The notes under the pieces were generated by a model, which saw only the letters and a program-made list of their open reading frames with translations, was not told where the DNA came from and searched no databases. Source: a virus. From it: DNA of 55,129 nucleotides. Location: positions 1 to 55,129 of the IMG/VR virus record IMGVR_UViG_3300042882_000260. The stretch is one strand, 5' to 3'. A program made the translations under genes and the position numbers. Below are positions 1-55,129 of the stretch, piece after piece; the stretch's first letter is position 1, and each line of letters starts with the position of its first letter.

Positions 1-185
1 AGAACTACGCAGGTATTGGTTACACATACGACAGAGTGCGTGATGCGTTTATACCACCTAAACCTTTCCCTAGCTGGACATTAGTAGAGGACACTTGTCA
101 ATGGCAAGCTCCAGTAGCTATGCCTACCGATGACAAAATATACGTGTGGGATGAGGCAACAACAAACTGGGTAGAAGCTGCATAA
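1..185 (+). CDS. 3' end of the 121-aa fibre-associated protein (partial, contig start)
   Basis: The open frame from base 3 encodes about 60 residues and ends with TAA at 183-185, overlapping the next ATG (TAATG). It is the same C-terminal segment as the protein encoded at 54764-55129, differing by one base: C at 58 against A at 55002, giving Pro instead of His. The start is cut off by the contig edge. It is therefore either the wrapped-around end of that gene in a circular genome or a second copy. Function unknown; the position between two Gly-rich fibre genes suggests a fibre accessory or chaperone role (inference). Confidence 0.8.
   Translation, partial: NYAGIGYTYDRVRDAFIPPKPFPSWTLVEDTCQWQAPVAMPTDDKIYVWDEATTNWVEAA
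1..185. repeat. Terminal direct repeat, left copy
   Basis: It matches 54945-55129 over 185 bases with one mismatch (position 58 against 55002). This is what a circular, circularly permuted or terminally redundant genome gives after assembly. The mismatch suggests population variation, or that the two copies are distinct. Confidence 0.95.
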
Positions 186-1264: not shown

Positions 1265-2341
1265 ATGGCTATAACACTAGATCCCACCACAGGCATTGTA
1301 ACGACACCAACAGTCACGGCTGATGGTACAACGGCTGTCGTCATGCCAGCAGGCACCACGGCTCAACGCCCAGCATCGCCAACGGCAGGGATGGTTAGGC
1401 TCAACACGACACTAGGCTACCCTGAGTGGTATAGTGCGACTTATAGCAATTGGTTAGCGTTCGGAACAACAGCGTTATATACACAAAAAGCGATATTTGG
1501 GTATGGATATACAACGGTTAACGTTTCGATGACTAACCTAGTTTCTAACACTGGTGTGGTGGCAACAGATACAACGGGAGTTGGAACAGCGCGGGGGTAT
1601 TTAGCAGCTACAGGATACGGAATAGATAAAGCAATCTTTGGGTATGGTATTACCTCAGTCGTTGTTTCAATGTCTAACTTAGTATCAAACACAGGGGTAG
1701 TCGCTACTGATACAACCGGTGTAGGTAGTGCACGAGGATATTTGGCTGCTGCTAGTTATGGTATAGATAAAGCTATATTTGGTTATGGCTATATTGCCTC
1801 ATCAACAGCAATAACAAATCTAGTGTCAAACACAGGGGTAATAGCAACAAATACTGCTGGTGTAGGACAAATACGATTTGGTTTGGCTGCGGCGGGATAT
1901 GGTCTAGATAAAGCAATCTTTGGCTACGGCATTAATGCTTCTCCACTTTCATTAACTAATTTAGTGTCAAACGCCGGCGTAGTTGCTACGGATACAACAG
2001 GCGTTGGAACAGCGAGAGCATATTTAGCTGCTGCAGGATACGGCGGTGATAAAGCAATATTTGGCTATGGTTCAAATAACGCGGGGACATATTATTCATT
2101 GACAAACTTAGTATCTAATACAGGAGTAGTTGCTACTGACACTACGGGTGTAGGTACAGCGAGACATTATTTGGCAGCAGCAGGGTATGGTAGCGATAAA
2201 GCTATATTCGGTTATGGGGCTACAGGGTCTAACCTATCTATGACTAACCTAGTCTCCAGCACTGGTGTTGTTGCTACTGACACAACAGGCGTAGGCACTG
2301 CTAGATATAGTTTAGCCGCAGCAAGTTATTCACTCTCTTAA
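1265..2341 (+). CDS. Six-repeat propeller-like tail fibre protein A (358 aa)
   Basis: After an N-terminal strand domain and the GTTAQRP...RLNTTLGYPEWYS module (about 30-60), the protein consists of six tandem repeats of about 47-49 residues. Each begins KAIFGYG, has a variable loop of 4-8 residues, then TNLVSNTGVVATDTTGVG, an Arg, and LAAAGYG. Repeats of this length and Gly/Tyr pattern recall kelch-like beta-propeller blades, so a six-bladed propeller is likely, but that is inference. The variable loop differs in sequence and length between repeats and would lie on one face. The next gene (2351-3436) is a tandem paralogue. Proposed role: receptor binding at the tail tip. Confidence 0.8.
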   Translation: MAITLDPTTGIVTTPTVTADGTTAVVMPAGTTAQRPASPTAGMVRLNTTLGYPEWYSATYSNWLAFGTTALYTQKAIFGYGYTTVNVSMTNLVSNTGVVATDTTGVGTARGYLAATGYGIDKAIFGYGITSVVVSMSNLVSNTGVVATDTTGVGSARGYLAAASYGIDKAIFGYGYIASSTAITNLVSNTGVIATNTAGVGQIRFGLAAAGYGLDKAIFGYGINASPLSLTNLVSNAGVVATDTTGVGTARAYLAAAGYGGDKAIFGYGSNNAGTYYSLTNLVSNTGVVATDTTGVGTARHYLAAAGYGSDKAIFGYGATGSNLSMTNLVSSTGVVATDTTGVGTARYSLAAASYSLS

Positions 2342-2350
2342 GGACAAGAC

Positions 2351-3436
2351 ATGGCAATTACATTAAACGGCACAACTGGGGTCACAACGCTAACAGTAAC
2401 TTGTACTGGTACAGACGCGATGACGCTTCCAGTAGGGACCACGGCCCAAGAGCCATCAGGCACAACGGGCATGATTCGTTACAACTCCACCCTAGGCTAC
2501 CCTGAGTGGTATAGCACGACATACAGTTCGTGGTTAGCATTTGGTGTGACAGCAGCGTATACACAAAAAGCTATTTTTGGATTTGGTTCAGGAGTGTCAT
2601 ACACGGCAGTAACTAATCTTGTTTCAAGTTCTGGAGTGGTGGCAACTGATACCACAGGTGTTGGTACCGTAAGGGCAGGATTAGCAGCTGCTGGATATGG
2701 ATTAGATAAAGCAATCTTTGGTTATGGAGATGCCAGCGCTGGATGGACAGCAATTACCAACCTAGTTTCAAATACAGGCGTAGTGGCAACAGACACAGCT
2801 GGAGTGGGCACAGTCAGGAATAACCTTGCCGCGGCTACATACGGTCTTGATAAGGCAATTTTTGGGTTTGGAGGAGATACTTCCCCTGCCTTTTATGCAA
2901 TGACCAACTTAGTGTCTAATACAGGTGTTGTTGCTACCGACACTGCAGGTGTTGGTTCCACAAGAGGTATCTTGGCTGCTGCGGGTTACGGTGGAGACAA
3001 GGCCTTATTTGGATATGGTTGGTTAACAGGTGGCGCACTGACTGCCGTAACAAATAAAGTATCTAACACTGGCGTTGTAGCCACCGATACGGCAGGCGTA
3101 GGTACAGCAAGGCGTAATATAACCGCAACAGGATATGGATATGATAAAGCTATCTTTGGATATGGTTACGCTGGTGGCTACGTTTCAATGACAAACCTAG
3201 TATCTAATACTGGCGTAGTGGCTACGGACACAACAGGTGTTGGTGTTGTTGCTCTTAGTAGAGCCGCTGCAAGTTATGGAGGAGATAAAGCTATATTTGG
3301 CTATGGTGCAACTTCATCCGTAAATACGGCTATAACTAATCTAGTTTCAAACACAGGCGTAGTGGCAACAGATACTACGGGTGTAGGCACAGCAAGAGCA
3401 AATTTAGCCGCAGCTAGCTATTCACTTTCAGCATAA
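2351..3436 (+). CDS. Six-repeat propeller-like tail fibre protein B (361 aa)
   Basis: A tandem paralogue of the preceding gene, with the same N-terminal module (GTTAQEP...RYNSTLGYPEWYS) and six repeats starting KA[IL]FG[YF]G. The loop after this motif is again the most variable part. The fifth repeat is degenerate, with the usual GTAR segment replaced by GVVALSR. At DNA level a 23-base stretch around the LGYPEWY codons is identical in both genes (1412-1434 and 2492-2514), consistent with duplication or recombination. A Shine-Dalgarno-like AAGGACAAG precedes the ATG. Receptor binding is inferred from its neighbours. Confidence 0.8.
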   Translation: MAITLNGTTGVTTLTVTCTGTDAMTLPVGTTAQEPSGTTGMIRYNSTLGYPEWYSTTYSSWLAFGVTAAYTQKAIFGFGSGVSYTAVTNLVSSSGVVATDTTGVGTVRAGLAAAGYGLDKAIFGYGDASAGWTAITNLVSNTGVVATDTAGVGTVRNNLAAATYGLDKAIFGFGGDTSPAFYAMTNLVSNTGVVATDTAGVGSTRGILAAAGYGGDKALFGYGWLTGGALTAVTNKVSNTGVVATDTAGVGTARRNITATGYGYDKAIFGYGYAGGYVSMTNLVSNTGVVATDTTGVGVVALSRAAASYGGDKAIFGYGATSSVNTAITNLVSNTGVVATDTTGVGTARANLAAASYSLSA

Positions 3437-3445
3437 GGTAAAACA

Positions 3446-4036
3446 ATGGCATCAAATTTAAACTCAGAGTTCAACTACCGCTACCAAGTAATTGGCAGCA
3501 CCCCCTGGGAAAAGCTTAAGACGCTCAAGGGTTTCTTGGTTGGACGTAAACGCGCAGCCGTGCTTGAAGAGTGCGCCGCATTAAAGTACCAAGCCAAGCT
3601 AGAGGAACTAAAACACCTTAAAGAAGTGCCTGCCTTGCCGCACATCATCCTTAACCTACAGGCTGAGATACTAGAGCTAGAGTCACACCTAGACGATCAA
3701 AAGCATGCGTTTGAATTAAACCGCACAGAGATAGGCATACTAGAGAAGTTGATTGCTGAGATATACGAAGAGGTTGAGCCTACTCGCATACCAGGCTACA
3801 CCGACGATCAGATGTTTGAGGCCAATGCCAATCACGAGTTTACCGTAACCATCGGCCGTGAACTGCAAGCTGAAATCATTGCTAACGGTCGTCCTAGTCC
3901 AGCTAAGCTACTTAACGCAATGAGCAACCCTCACACGCTAGAGGCGCTTAAACAAATCGGCATGGTGCCAAAAGAGACTGTGCTACTAGGCGAGAAAGAA
4001 GTGACGCTACAACTTACCAATCAAGGAGAAGAGTAA
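3446..4036 (+). CDS. Hypothetical protein with central coiled coil (196 aa)
   Basis: Soluble and charged. The stretch about 40-130 is rich in Glu, Lys and Leu in heptad-like order (EECAALKYQAKLEELKHLK, then ILELESHLDDQKHAFELN), pointing to an alpha-helical coiled coil. No signal peptide or known motif is seen. It closes the fibre cassette and its stop overlaps the next ATG (TAATG at 4034-4038), so it is translationally coupled to the membrane protein that follows. A structural or assembly role is possible; the function is unknown. Confidence 0.7.
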   Translation: MASNLNSEFNYRYQVIGSTPWEKLKTLKGFLVGRKRAAVLEECAALKYQAKLEELKHLKEVPALPHIILNLQAEILELESHLDDQKHAFELNRTEIGILEKLIAEIYEEVEPTRIPGYTDDQMFEANANHEFTVTIGRELQAEIIANGRPSPAKLLNAMSNPHTLEALKQIGMVPKETVLLGEKEVTLQLTNQGEE

Positions 4037-46035: not shown

Positions 46036-46950
46036 ATGGCAACCCCAATGAGAAGTACGGACTTTAGGTCCATTGTTGAGCCGATCCTTAACGAAAGTTT
46101 TGACGGTATTTACAGCCAACGTGCTGACGAGTGGAAAGGCGTGTTTGATGAGGTTCAAGGTATCAAACGTAACTACCACGAAGAGCCAGTATTGTATGGC
46201 TTCGGTGCAGCTCCTGAGTTGCCTGATGGTATGGCTGTTACTTACCAATCTGGTGGTGTGTTATTCGCACAACGCTACTGGTACAAAGTATATGGCCTAG
46301 CTTTTGCCTTGACTAAAGTCTTGGTAGAAGATGGTGACCATATCCGTATCGGTCAAACATACGCTCGTCACTTAGCTCAATCTTTGGTTGAGACAAAAGA
46401 AACCTTGGCAGCTAACGTATTGAATAATTCATTCAATAACGCTTACCAAGGTGGCGACGGTGTTTCATTGATCAACGCTTCACATCCAATCGTGAATGGT
46501 ACATTCAGCAATCAGTTAACTACTGCAGCTGCTTTGTCACAAACATCATTGGAACAAATGTTGATTCAAATCCGTCAGGCAGTGGACAACAACGGTAAAC
46601 GTATCCGTTTAGTACCACAAAAACTAGTATTAAGCCCATCTAACGTGTTCCAAGGCGAAGTATTGCTAAACAGCGTATTAAAAGCTGGTACAGCAGACAA
46701 CGACTTGAACCCGATTAAATCAATGGGTCTATTATCTGGTGGTCAAGCTAACATGTCTCGTTTGACTTCAAACACCGCTTGGTGGGTGAAAACAGACGCG
46801 CCAGAAGGCTTGAAAATCGTTATGCGTCGTGGTTTAGAGAAATCTATGGAAGGCGATTTTGAGACTGACTCTATGCGTTACAAAGCAACAGAGCGTTACT
46901 CATTAGGCTGGACAGATCCTCGTGCCGCTTACGGTACAGCTGGTATCTAA
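46036..46950 (+). CDS. Major capsid protein, Mu gpT-like HK97 fold (304 aa)
   Basis: The N-terminal arm (RSTDFRSIVEPILNESFDGI) is followed by VFDEVQGIKRNYHEEPVLYGFG and ELPDGMAVTYQSGGVLFAQRYWYKVYGLAFALTK, then HLAQSLVETKETLAANVLNNSFN, a helix seen in Mu gpT-like capsid proteins. It ends TERYSLGWTDPRAAYGTAGI. The strong AAGGAGG upstream and the terminator hairpin downstream fit a highly expressed gene. Forms the capsid shell. Confidence 0.88.
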   Translation: MATPMRSTDFRSIVEPILNESFDGIYSQRADEWKGVFDEVQGIKRNYHEEPVLYGFGAAPELPDGMAVTYQSGGVLFAQRYWYKVYGLAFALTKVLVEDGDHIRIGQTYARHLAQSLVETKETLAANVLNNSFNNAYQGGDGVSLINASHPIVNGTFSNQLTTAAALSQTSLEQMLIQIRQAVDNNGKRIRLVPQKLVLSPSNVFQGEVLLNSVLKAGTADNDLNPIKSMGLLSGGQANMSRLTSNTAWWVKTDAPEGLKIVMRRGLEKSMEGDFETDSMRYKATERYSLGWTDPRAAYGTAGI

Positions 46951-53681: not shown

Positions 53682-54752
53682 ATGCCAGTACTTTTAGCAG
53701 GAGCGACAAGCGGTGTAACGACTGTACAAGCTACAGACACGGTGACTGCTACAATGACCTTGCCATCTGTAACGGGTATTGTACCAACACAAGACAGCAC
53801 AACAGGTGCATTGACATTACCTACTGGCACAACAGCACAACGCCCTACAGCCTCAACAGGTATGGTTAGGTACAACTCAACAACTGGGTATATGGAATAC
53901 TACAACGGCACAGCTTGGTATAGCGTAACACCCATACCTATTACTCCTACTGTGGAGTATTTAGTTGTTGCGGGTGGCGGTGCTGGAGCAGCTGGCGGTG
54001 TAGGTAATGGTGGCGGTGGCGGAGCAGGTGGTTATCGCACAGCAGCAGGATTAGCTGTTTCAACAGGTTCGGCAATTACTGTAACTGTCGGTGCAGGTGG
54101 TACAGGCTTAACAGCAGCAAATACAACTGGAGCAAACGGTTCTAACTCTGTATTTGGTTCTATTACCTCTACTGGCGGTGGCGGTGGCGGTGGATGGAAT
54201 GGTACTCCAAATGCGGGTGGTTCTGGTGGCGGAGCTGGTCAAGCAGGTGCTGTTGCTGGTGGAGCAGCCTCTCCTGCTGGTCAAGGTAATGTTGGTGGTA
54301 CAACAGCAAATAATAATAATGCTGGTTGCGGCGGTGGTGGTGCTAGTGCAGCAGGTGAATCAAAAACAGGACCAAATTTAAACGGTGGATATGGCGGCAA
54401 TGGTTCAGCTTCGTCTATCTCAGGTTCATCAGTAACTTATGCTGGTGGCGGTGGTGGTTCTGTTCATGGCTCTGGCTCATCATCTACTGGCGCAGGTGGT
54501 ACAGGTGGTGGCGGTCAAGGTGGCTTTTCTACATCATCAAGAAATGGTGGCTCTGGTACAGCTAACACAGGTGGTGGTGGTGGTGGTGCAGGTGAGAGCA
54601 TGCTTTCAGGTTCAGGTGGTTCAGGTGTTGTTATTATTCGTTACGCTGATACATACGCTCCCCCTGCTTCAACTACAGGCTCACCTACTATAACAGTCGC
54701 TGGTGGCTACCGTGTCTACAAATGGACTGGTTCAGGTTCAATTACTTTTTAA
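53682..54752 (+). CDS. Glycine-rich tail fibre / adhesin protein (356 aa), paralogue of 185-1255
   Basis: Same length and same layout as the protein at 185-1255: N-terminal strands, GTTAQRPTASTGMVRYNSTTGYMEYYNGTAWYS, VEYLVVAGGGAG, Gly-rich blocks with variable loops, and the end GGYRVYKWTGSGSITF. The loops between GGGG blocks differ most between the two copies. If the contig is circular the two genes are separated only by the 121-aa gene. Receptor binding is inferred. Confidence 0.85.
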   Translation: MPVLLAGATSGVTTVQATDTVTATMTLPSVTGIVPTQDSTTGALTLPTGTTAQRPTASTGMVRYNSTTGYMEYYNGTAWYSVTPIPITPTVEYLVVAGGGAGAAGGVGNGGGGGAGGYRTAAGLAVSTGSAITVTVGAGGTGLTAANTTGANGSNSVFGSITSTGGGGGGGWNGTPNAGGSGGGAGQAGAVAGGAASPAGQGNVGGTTANNNNAGCGGGGASAAGESKTGPNLNGGYGGNGSASSISGSSVTYAGGGGGSVHGSGSSSTGAGGTGGGGQGGFSTSSRNGGSGTANTGGGGGGAGESMLSGSGGSGVVIIRYADTYAPPASTTGSPTITVAGGYRVYKWTGSGSITF

Positions 54753-54763
54753 GGATTTACAAG

Positions 54764-55129
54764 ATGGCTTATTTTTGCAAACTAGATGATAACGATGTCG
54801 TGATTGATGTCCACGCACTTAACAACATTGAGATGCTAACCGCTGAAGGTGTAGAGTCCGAGGATATGGGTAAGGCTTTCTTTATCCGTTGGTCTAACGG
54901 TCACTCTAAGTGGGTGCAAACATCTTACAACGGTACAATCCGTAAGAACTACGCAGGTATTGGTTACACATACGACAGAGTGCGTGATGCGTTTATACCA
55001 CATAAACCTTTCCCTAGCTGGACATTAGTAGAGGACACTTGTCAATGGCAAGCTCCAGTAGCTATGCCTACCGATGACAAAATATACGTGTGGGATGAGG
55101 CAACAACAAACTGGGTAGAAGCTGCATAA
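54764..55129 (+). CDS. Fibre-associated protein (121 aa)
   Basis: The start at 54764 has AAGGATTT upstream; an in-frame ATG at 54722 lies inside the previous gene. MAYFCKLDDNDVVIDVHALN opens a protein with aromatic-rich strands (AFFIRWSNGHSKWVQTSYNGT; KPFPSWTLVEDTCQWQAPVAMP), a pattern seen in phage proteins encoded near fibres. The 3' end is the right copy of the 185-base terminal repeat. Function unknown, perhaps a fibre cap or chaperone. Confidence 0.8.
   Translation: MAYFCKLDDNDVVIDVHALNNIEMLTAEGVESEDMGKAFFIRWSNGHSKWVQTSYNGTIRKNYAGIGYTYDRVRDAFIPHKPFPSWTLVEDTCQWQAPVAMPTDDKIYVWDEATTNWVEAA
54945..55129. repeat. Terminal direct repeat, right copy
   Basis: Matches 1-185 with one difference (A at 55002). 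It ends exactly at the TAA of the 121-aa gene. Confidence 0.95.

Follow-up and report, generated by a model that had tools for sequence, protein, structure and literature searches.

Adjacent phage genes encode probable tail-tip adhesins with a predicted six-bladed kelch-type ring and a diversified face

We analyzed a stretch of viral DNA of 55,129 nucleotides (IMG/VR record IMGVR_UViG_3300042882_000260; hereafter, the window), in which two adjacent genes are, in our judgment, quite likely to encode tail-tip adhesins, each folded as a closed six-bladed ring of kelch type with one face diversified for receptor binding. An initial annotation had placed these genes at positions 1265-3436 and had assigned exactly six repeats of about 48 residues to each protein; both statements were borne out, as each adhesin has an N-terminal part of 72-74 residues followed by C-terminal repeats of 47-49 residues. 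In the arrangement that we propose, the short N-terminal module would mount each adhesin on the tail or on a fibre, and the C-terminal tip would be a closed beta-propeller with six blades and the topology of the kelch type. Each repeat would contribute strands B, C and D of one blade and strand A of the next blade, with the last repeat giving strand A of blade 1, which would close the ring. The B-C loop (after the GYG motif) and the D-A turn (the two residues after a conserved Arg, R+1 and R+2) of all six blades would lie on one face. Strong purifying selection keeps the framework, while selection and changes in loop length diversify the face; paralogous tips of a single phage, like those of separate phages, would thereby recognize distinct receptors on the surface of host bacteria. 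The features are the following:

185 to 1255, + strand: Gly_rich_2 fibre-tip protein, with an N-terminal module of the adhesin kind, in the same gene array
1265 to 2341, + strand: propeller adhesin 1 (358 aa), a putative N-terminal attachment module, then six predicted kelch-type blades
1265 to 1486, + strand: adhesin 1 N-terminal module (residues 1-74), TAQRP...GM.R.N.T.G..E.Y tail-fibre type
1487 to 1627, + strand: adhesin 1 blade unit 1, loop YTTVNV (1508-1525), R+1/R+2 GY (1595-1600)
1628 to 1768, + strand: adhesin 1 blade unit 2, loop ITSVVV, R+1/R+2 GY
1769 to 1909, + strand: adhesin 1 blade unit 3, loop YIASST, R+1/R+2 FG
1910 to 2050, + strand: adhesin 1 blade unit 4, loop INASPL, R+1/R+2 AY
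2051 to 2197, + strand: adhesin 1 blade unit 5, loop SNNAGTYY, R+1/R+2 HY
2198 to 2338, + strand: adhesin 1 blade unit 6, loop ATGSNL, R+1/R+2 YS; its terminal strand LAAASYS would close blade 1
2351 to 3436, + strand: propeller adhesin 2 (361 aa), 71% identical to adhesin 1, fold assigned by homology only
2351 to 2566, + strand: adhesin 2 N-terminal module (residues 1-72), 52/72 identical to adhesin 1
2567 to 2707, + strand: adhesin 2 blade unit 1, loop SGVSYT, R+1/R+2 AG
2708 to 2851, + strand: adhesin 2 blade unit 2, loop DASAGWT, R+1/R+2 NN
2852 to 2998, + strand: adhesin 2 blade unit 3, loop GDTSPAFY, R+1/R+2 GI
2999 to 3145, + strand: adhesin 2 blade unit 4, loop WLTGGALT, R+1/R+2 RN
3146 to 3286, + strand: adhesin 2 blade unit 5, loop YAGGYV, atypical segment VGVVALSRAAAS, conserved Arg missing or displaced
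3287 to 3433, + strand: adhesin 2 blade unit 6, loop ATSSVNT, R+1/R+2 AN
3446 to 4036, + strand: companion gene (196 aa), no Pfam or PHROG match
53682 to 54752, + strand: second Gly-rich fibre-tip gene, same array

The N-terminal module is common to the two adhesins and the two Gly-rich ORFs (185-1255 and 53682-54752). The identity of the twins, measured over 354 aligned residues, is alike in the N-terminal part and in the repeats (200/282). A direct terminal repeat of 185 bases with one mismatch links the ends of the window (1-185 and 54945-55129); thus, the fibre array runs across the record ends, and the record probably represents a whole genome with terminal redundancy. Of 80 loci centred on the companion gene, 64 have it directly next to a propeller gene, and in the others it is often found near Gly-rich fibre genes; our guess is that it encodes an assembly factor. 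The capsid protein (window 46036-46950) is 78% identical to those of Caulobacter phages RW, GB2A, RLK and KcrB, a likeness that hints at an alphaproteobacterial host; Caulobacter phage RW and its relatives gave no propeller match.

The distribution of variability over the repeat is strongly uneven. Per-column entropy, computed over 846 unique blades of the family, was mostly below 1 bit in the framework and 2.3-3.7 bits in the loop after GYG. The contrast proposed initially, between an almost invariant framework and a variable loop of 4-8 residues after KAIFGYG, is therefore real, with loops of 6-8 residues in both adhesins and of 2-14 residues (mode 6) across 768 family blades. That proposal had missed a second hypervariable site, R+1 and R+2, the entropy of which is 3.5-3.6 bits.

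Selection was tested using ten disjoint gene pairs (framework pS 0.085-0.358), which include paralogs and in which recombination is possible. Estimates of dN/dS from blade pairs picked by low framework pS are biased, and were replaced by half-codon conditioning and then by the disjoint pairs. Framework codons had pS of 0.290 and pN of 0.073 (dN/dS 0.21). The corresponding values for R+1/R+2 codons were 0.333 and 0.490, i.e., dN/dS of 2.17 (1.82-2.64 in a bootstrap over pairs), and the synonymous rates of the post-Arg and framework codons did not differ (p = 0.43). Loop codons, in which length changes are numerous, had pS of 0.296 and pN of 0.335 (dN/dS about 1.2), and the loop taken alone did not significantly exceed the synonymous rate of the framework (p = 0.09). 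These results fit selection for diversity at R+1/R+2 and, in the loop, change that is variable in length and at least relaxed. The excess of change expected for loop codons is thus found relative to the framework, but loop pN is close to pS, and positive selection is clearest at the site that had been overlooked.

The role of the proteins is argued from the gene context, the placement of the propeller and its fusion partners. The window neighbours of the adhesin genes are tail genes and Gly-rich fibre tips. The propeller is C-terminal, with 0-4 residues beyond the repeats in all but two ORFs of the family, whereas the N-termini are swapped between modules that resemble fibre or carbohydrate-binding domains and include LamG, RCC1, fn3, Ig-like and Gly-rich modules, as well as a T7 tail-fibre-like domain (in locus L001, a Phage_T7_tail match with E of 2e-5 and 24.8 bits, just below the curated cut-off of 25.2). 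Together, these observations point to a location at the tail tip, and we infer, as the best reading, that the variable face binds host surface receptors. Alternatively, the propeller might be a virion decoration or an enzyme, with an unconstrained face diversified by drift. The similarity of pN and pS in the loop is as expected from relaxed constraint, and some phage kelch proteins are structural, e.g., CBB_552 (PMC5259590). However, drift does not predict the pattern at R+1/R+2, where pN exceeded the framework pS in 10/10 pairs and also the pS of the same codons (p = 0.012). Furthermore, apart from the repeated Arg, the variable face has no set of conserved residues that would be a candidate for catalysis, and the C-terminal position on swapped fibre N-termini suits a tip. 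A decoration or an enzyme is thus unlikely, and we retain the adhesin interpretation.

The next question is how the diversity of the adhesins arose. Where two blades have the same amino acid, their third codon positions match in only about 40% of cases, whether the blades come from one gene or from both; for blades of equal index in the twins, the agreement is barely greater (0.45) than for other blades (0.41). Judging from these codons, the sameness of the framework is not due to recent duplication. The gene duplication is old. A targeted mechanism, either a diversity-generating retroelement or the shuffling of cassettes (blades or loops), is conceivable, given that variation is restricted to fixed positions of a conserved frame and that near-identical blade copies occur inside single genes (in loci L001, L021 and L110). 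Against this, RVT_1 was not found above the cut-off in 31 records (the window and 30 related records, many of them fragments), synonymous change is similar at the two variable sites (0.33 and 0.30) and in the framework (0.29), and close pairs differ solely in loops or at R+1/R+2, with the surrounding codons unchanged. We consider a targeted mechanism highly unlikely; because the synonymous rates of all sites are alike and these records yielded no reverse transcriptase, selection is the likely source of the diversity.

The number of repeats is quantised in sixes, to a degree that goes beyond chance. A repeat HMM was run on all ORFs from 216 fetched loci and the window; among 176 complete unique ORFs, 160 contained six repeats, three contained twelve, two contained eighteen, four contained five, and seven contained two to four. 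The twelve- and eighteen-repeat proteins consist of six-repeat blocks separated by linkers of 23-37 residues. The same number prevails in the companion-fetched loci, a set chosen independently of propeller coverage, in which 67 of 74 ORFs have six repeats; the other seven are two halves of one split gene in locus L153, three five-repeat ORFs and two two-repeat ORFs. Four of the seven short complete ORFs, namely those with two and four repeats in L153 and a pair with three repeats each in L086, resemble six-repeat genes split by frameshifts and were not treated as exceptions. Thus, the exceptions that are not obvious split genes are four five-repeat ORFs, two two-repeat ORFs and one three-repeat ORF.

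Loci L199 (1468-3430) and L110 (from 1586 and 2725 onwards) contain five- and six-blade versions of one gene. The six-blade version includes two near-identical blades (loop FTTVDV), which suggests that blade number shifts by tandem gain or loss (or that an assembly collapsed), while six prevails. Complete ORFs with just two or three blades, divisors of six, start at L104:7816, L039:6957 and L011:4243; they may form rings as oligomers, or may reflect assembly collapse.

The predicted structure agrees with these counts. AlphaFold2 was applied to adhesin 1 using an alignment of 117 sequences, and yielded a model in which residues 71-358 reached pLDDT of about 92, against about 50 for the N-terminal part. 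Across the set of five models, the values spread from 83.5 down to 57.4, and the model of adhesin 2 (80-row alignment) had a mean pLDDT of 48 and was not used; this instability is due to the near-identical repeats. All 50 matches listed by Foldseek for the adhesin 1 model against the PDB are kelch domains or SAKe6 designs. Structural alignment (VIA-align) to SAKe6BC gave Z of 34.1 and 2.2 Å over 272/281 residues, and that to Keap1 gave Z of 33.5; residues 74-355 of the model align to the whole Keap1 and SAKe6 rings (Z about 34). BFVD models of relatives (52-70% identity) have the same fold, and the relative with 70% identity superimposes at 1.3 Å. In addition, the first repeat begins at strand B and the last one ends at strand A, as in the designed closed SAKe6 rings. 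The model, the repeat numbers in sixes and these repeat boundaries together lend good support to a closed six-bladed ring of four-stranded blades for adhesin 1, as anticipated by the initial annotation, with closure predicted to involve strands from both chain ends. By its 71% identity, adhesin 2 would have the same fold. Neither a predicted open solenoid nor loop variation as low as that of the framework, either of which would have contradicted the initial annotation, was observed.

It should be noted that the family is of kelch type by fold and not by sequence family, because the Pfam kelch models do not recognize the sequences: none matches either adhesin, even at E of 10, and none is among the 25 families listed for 117 relatives. 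In the repeat consensus, GYG replaces the kelch GG, and the kelch Trp is missing. Searches of Pfam, NCBIfam and PHROGs assigned no function to the repeats, and there are weak profile matches to the PLL/PHL lectins (PLL2, PHL; E 0.0007-0.015), which have seven blades. It is hardly credible that the repeats form an open solenoid or are kin of these lectins instead of a kelch-type ring: the repeat length is similar and the profile matches to PLL2 and PHL reach E of 0.0007-0.001, but nearly all members have six repeats, not seven, the larger ones are blocks of six, and the adhesin 1 model fits six-bladed kelch rings around the whole ring.

The B-C connection of a propeller blade is on the same side as its D-A connection. 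The strand order of the adhesin 1 model identifies the variable loop as B-C and R+1/R+2 as D-A; therefore, both variable sites are predicted to share one face, as had been suggested for the loops alone. A comparison to Keap1 is instructive, the ligand contacts of which include Ser508, Ser555, Ser602, Tyr525 and Tyr572 (PMC12266349, PMC6891428). These contacts are spaced by 47 residues, with 17 residues between Ser and Tyr; by this spacing, they would be equivalent to R+1 and to the residue after GG in kelch sequences.

The kelch domains of Keap1, KLHL12 and KLHL17 share with the adhesin 1 model the six blades, the chain topology and the 47-residue spacing (Z about 33-34, 2.2-2.5 Å), and the positions of the ligand contacts probably correspond as well. 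However, the identity is 10-15%, the two motif differences noted above separate them, and an E3-ligase adaptor with conserved contacts is compared to a phage fibre tip with diversified contacts. The SAKe6 symmetric rings have similar near-identical repeats of 47 residues, but were designed computationally, whereas the phage frame is natural, near-symmetric and carries different loops on every blade. The PLL/PHL lectins of Photorhabdus resemble the adhesins in repeats of about 48 residues, and differ in blade number; we know of no paired hypervariable sites in them. Propellers are present in phage proteins that recognize the host, or are proposed to do so, namely, phi11 Gp45 (five-bladed), PRD1 P2 and PhiKZ gp131C (PMC4901313). 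These have five or seven blades, in contrast to kelch-type, near-identical repeats with paired hypervariable sites, and the searches made here showed no sequence relationship to the adhesins. Large phages also have kelch-like proteins, which include CBB_550, CBB_552 and CBB_554, of which CBB_552 was found in virions (PMC5259590). These proteins and BcepSaruman A0A4D5ZBY9 (model 22% identical) are also phage propellers of kelch type, but they are recognized by kelch motif annotation and belong to another sequence family. In one fibre protein (L206:937-3264), an RCC1-like propeller is fused N-terminal to a kelch-like propeller.

In IMG/VR, 558 stretches match adhesin 1, whereas tblastn and blastn searches of 50,697 GenBank phage records found no close relative of the repeats. 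In a local test with the low-complexity filter on, a relative was still recovered at E of 2e-63; thus, the absence from the phage records carries weight for close relatives, and cultured collections may lack a widespread design for host recognition. Matches of adhesin 2 to isolate phages are limited to the N-terminal module, and no report of this propeller family was found in the literature. Among 84,980 genomes of bacteria and archaea, one carries the propeller, an Oligoflexia MAG with the propeller and the companion among housekeeping genes; the propeller was not found in 142 other genomes of its class. In this MAG (L217:7749-9555), the chromosomal propeller has a Tat-like signal (SRRKFFV), is followed by the companion, and lies between ABC-transporter and HPF genes, possibly as a domesticated cassette.

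A broader reading, to which we give a modest chance, is that the family is a natural, generic binding platform: a near-symmetric six-bladed ring with 12 freely diversified surface segments that occurs with 6, 12 or 18 blades, is assembled from chains of two or three blades in some phages, and was taken up by a bacterium as a cassette of propeller and companion. Such a platform could be likened to the designed SAKe rings or to an antibody frame. The sequence, predicted fold and evolution of the adhesins are established, and host binding by the variable face is the most probable reading. The adhesins also offer a natural parallel to a scaffold that was designed to bear loops. The hypervariable, positively selected positions are tied to one face of a defined fold, and receptor specificity could therefore be studied from sequence.
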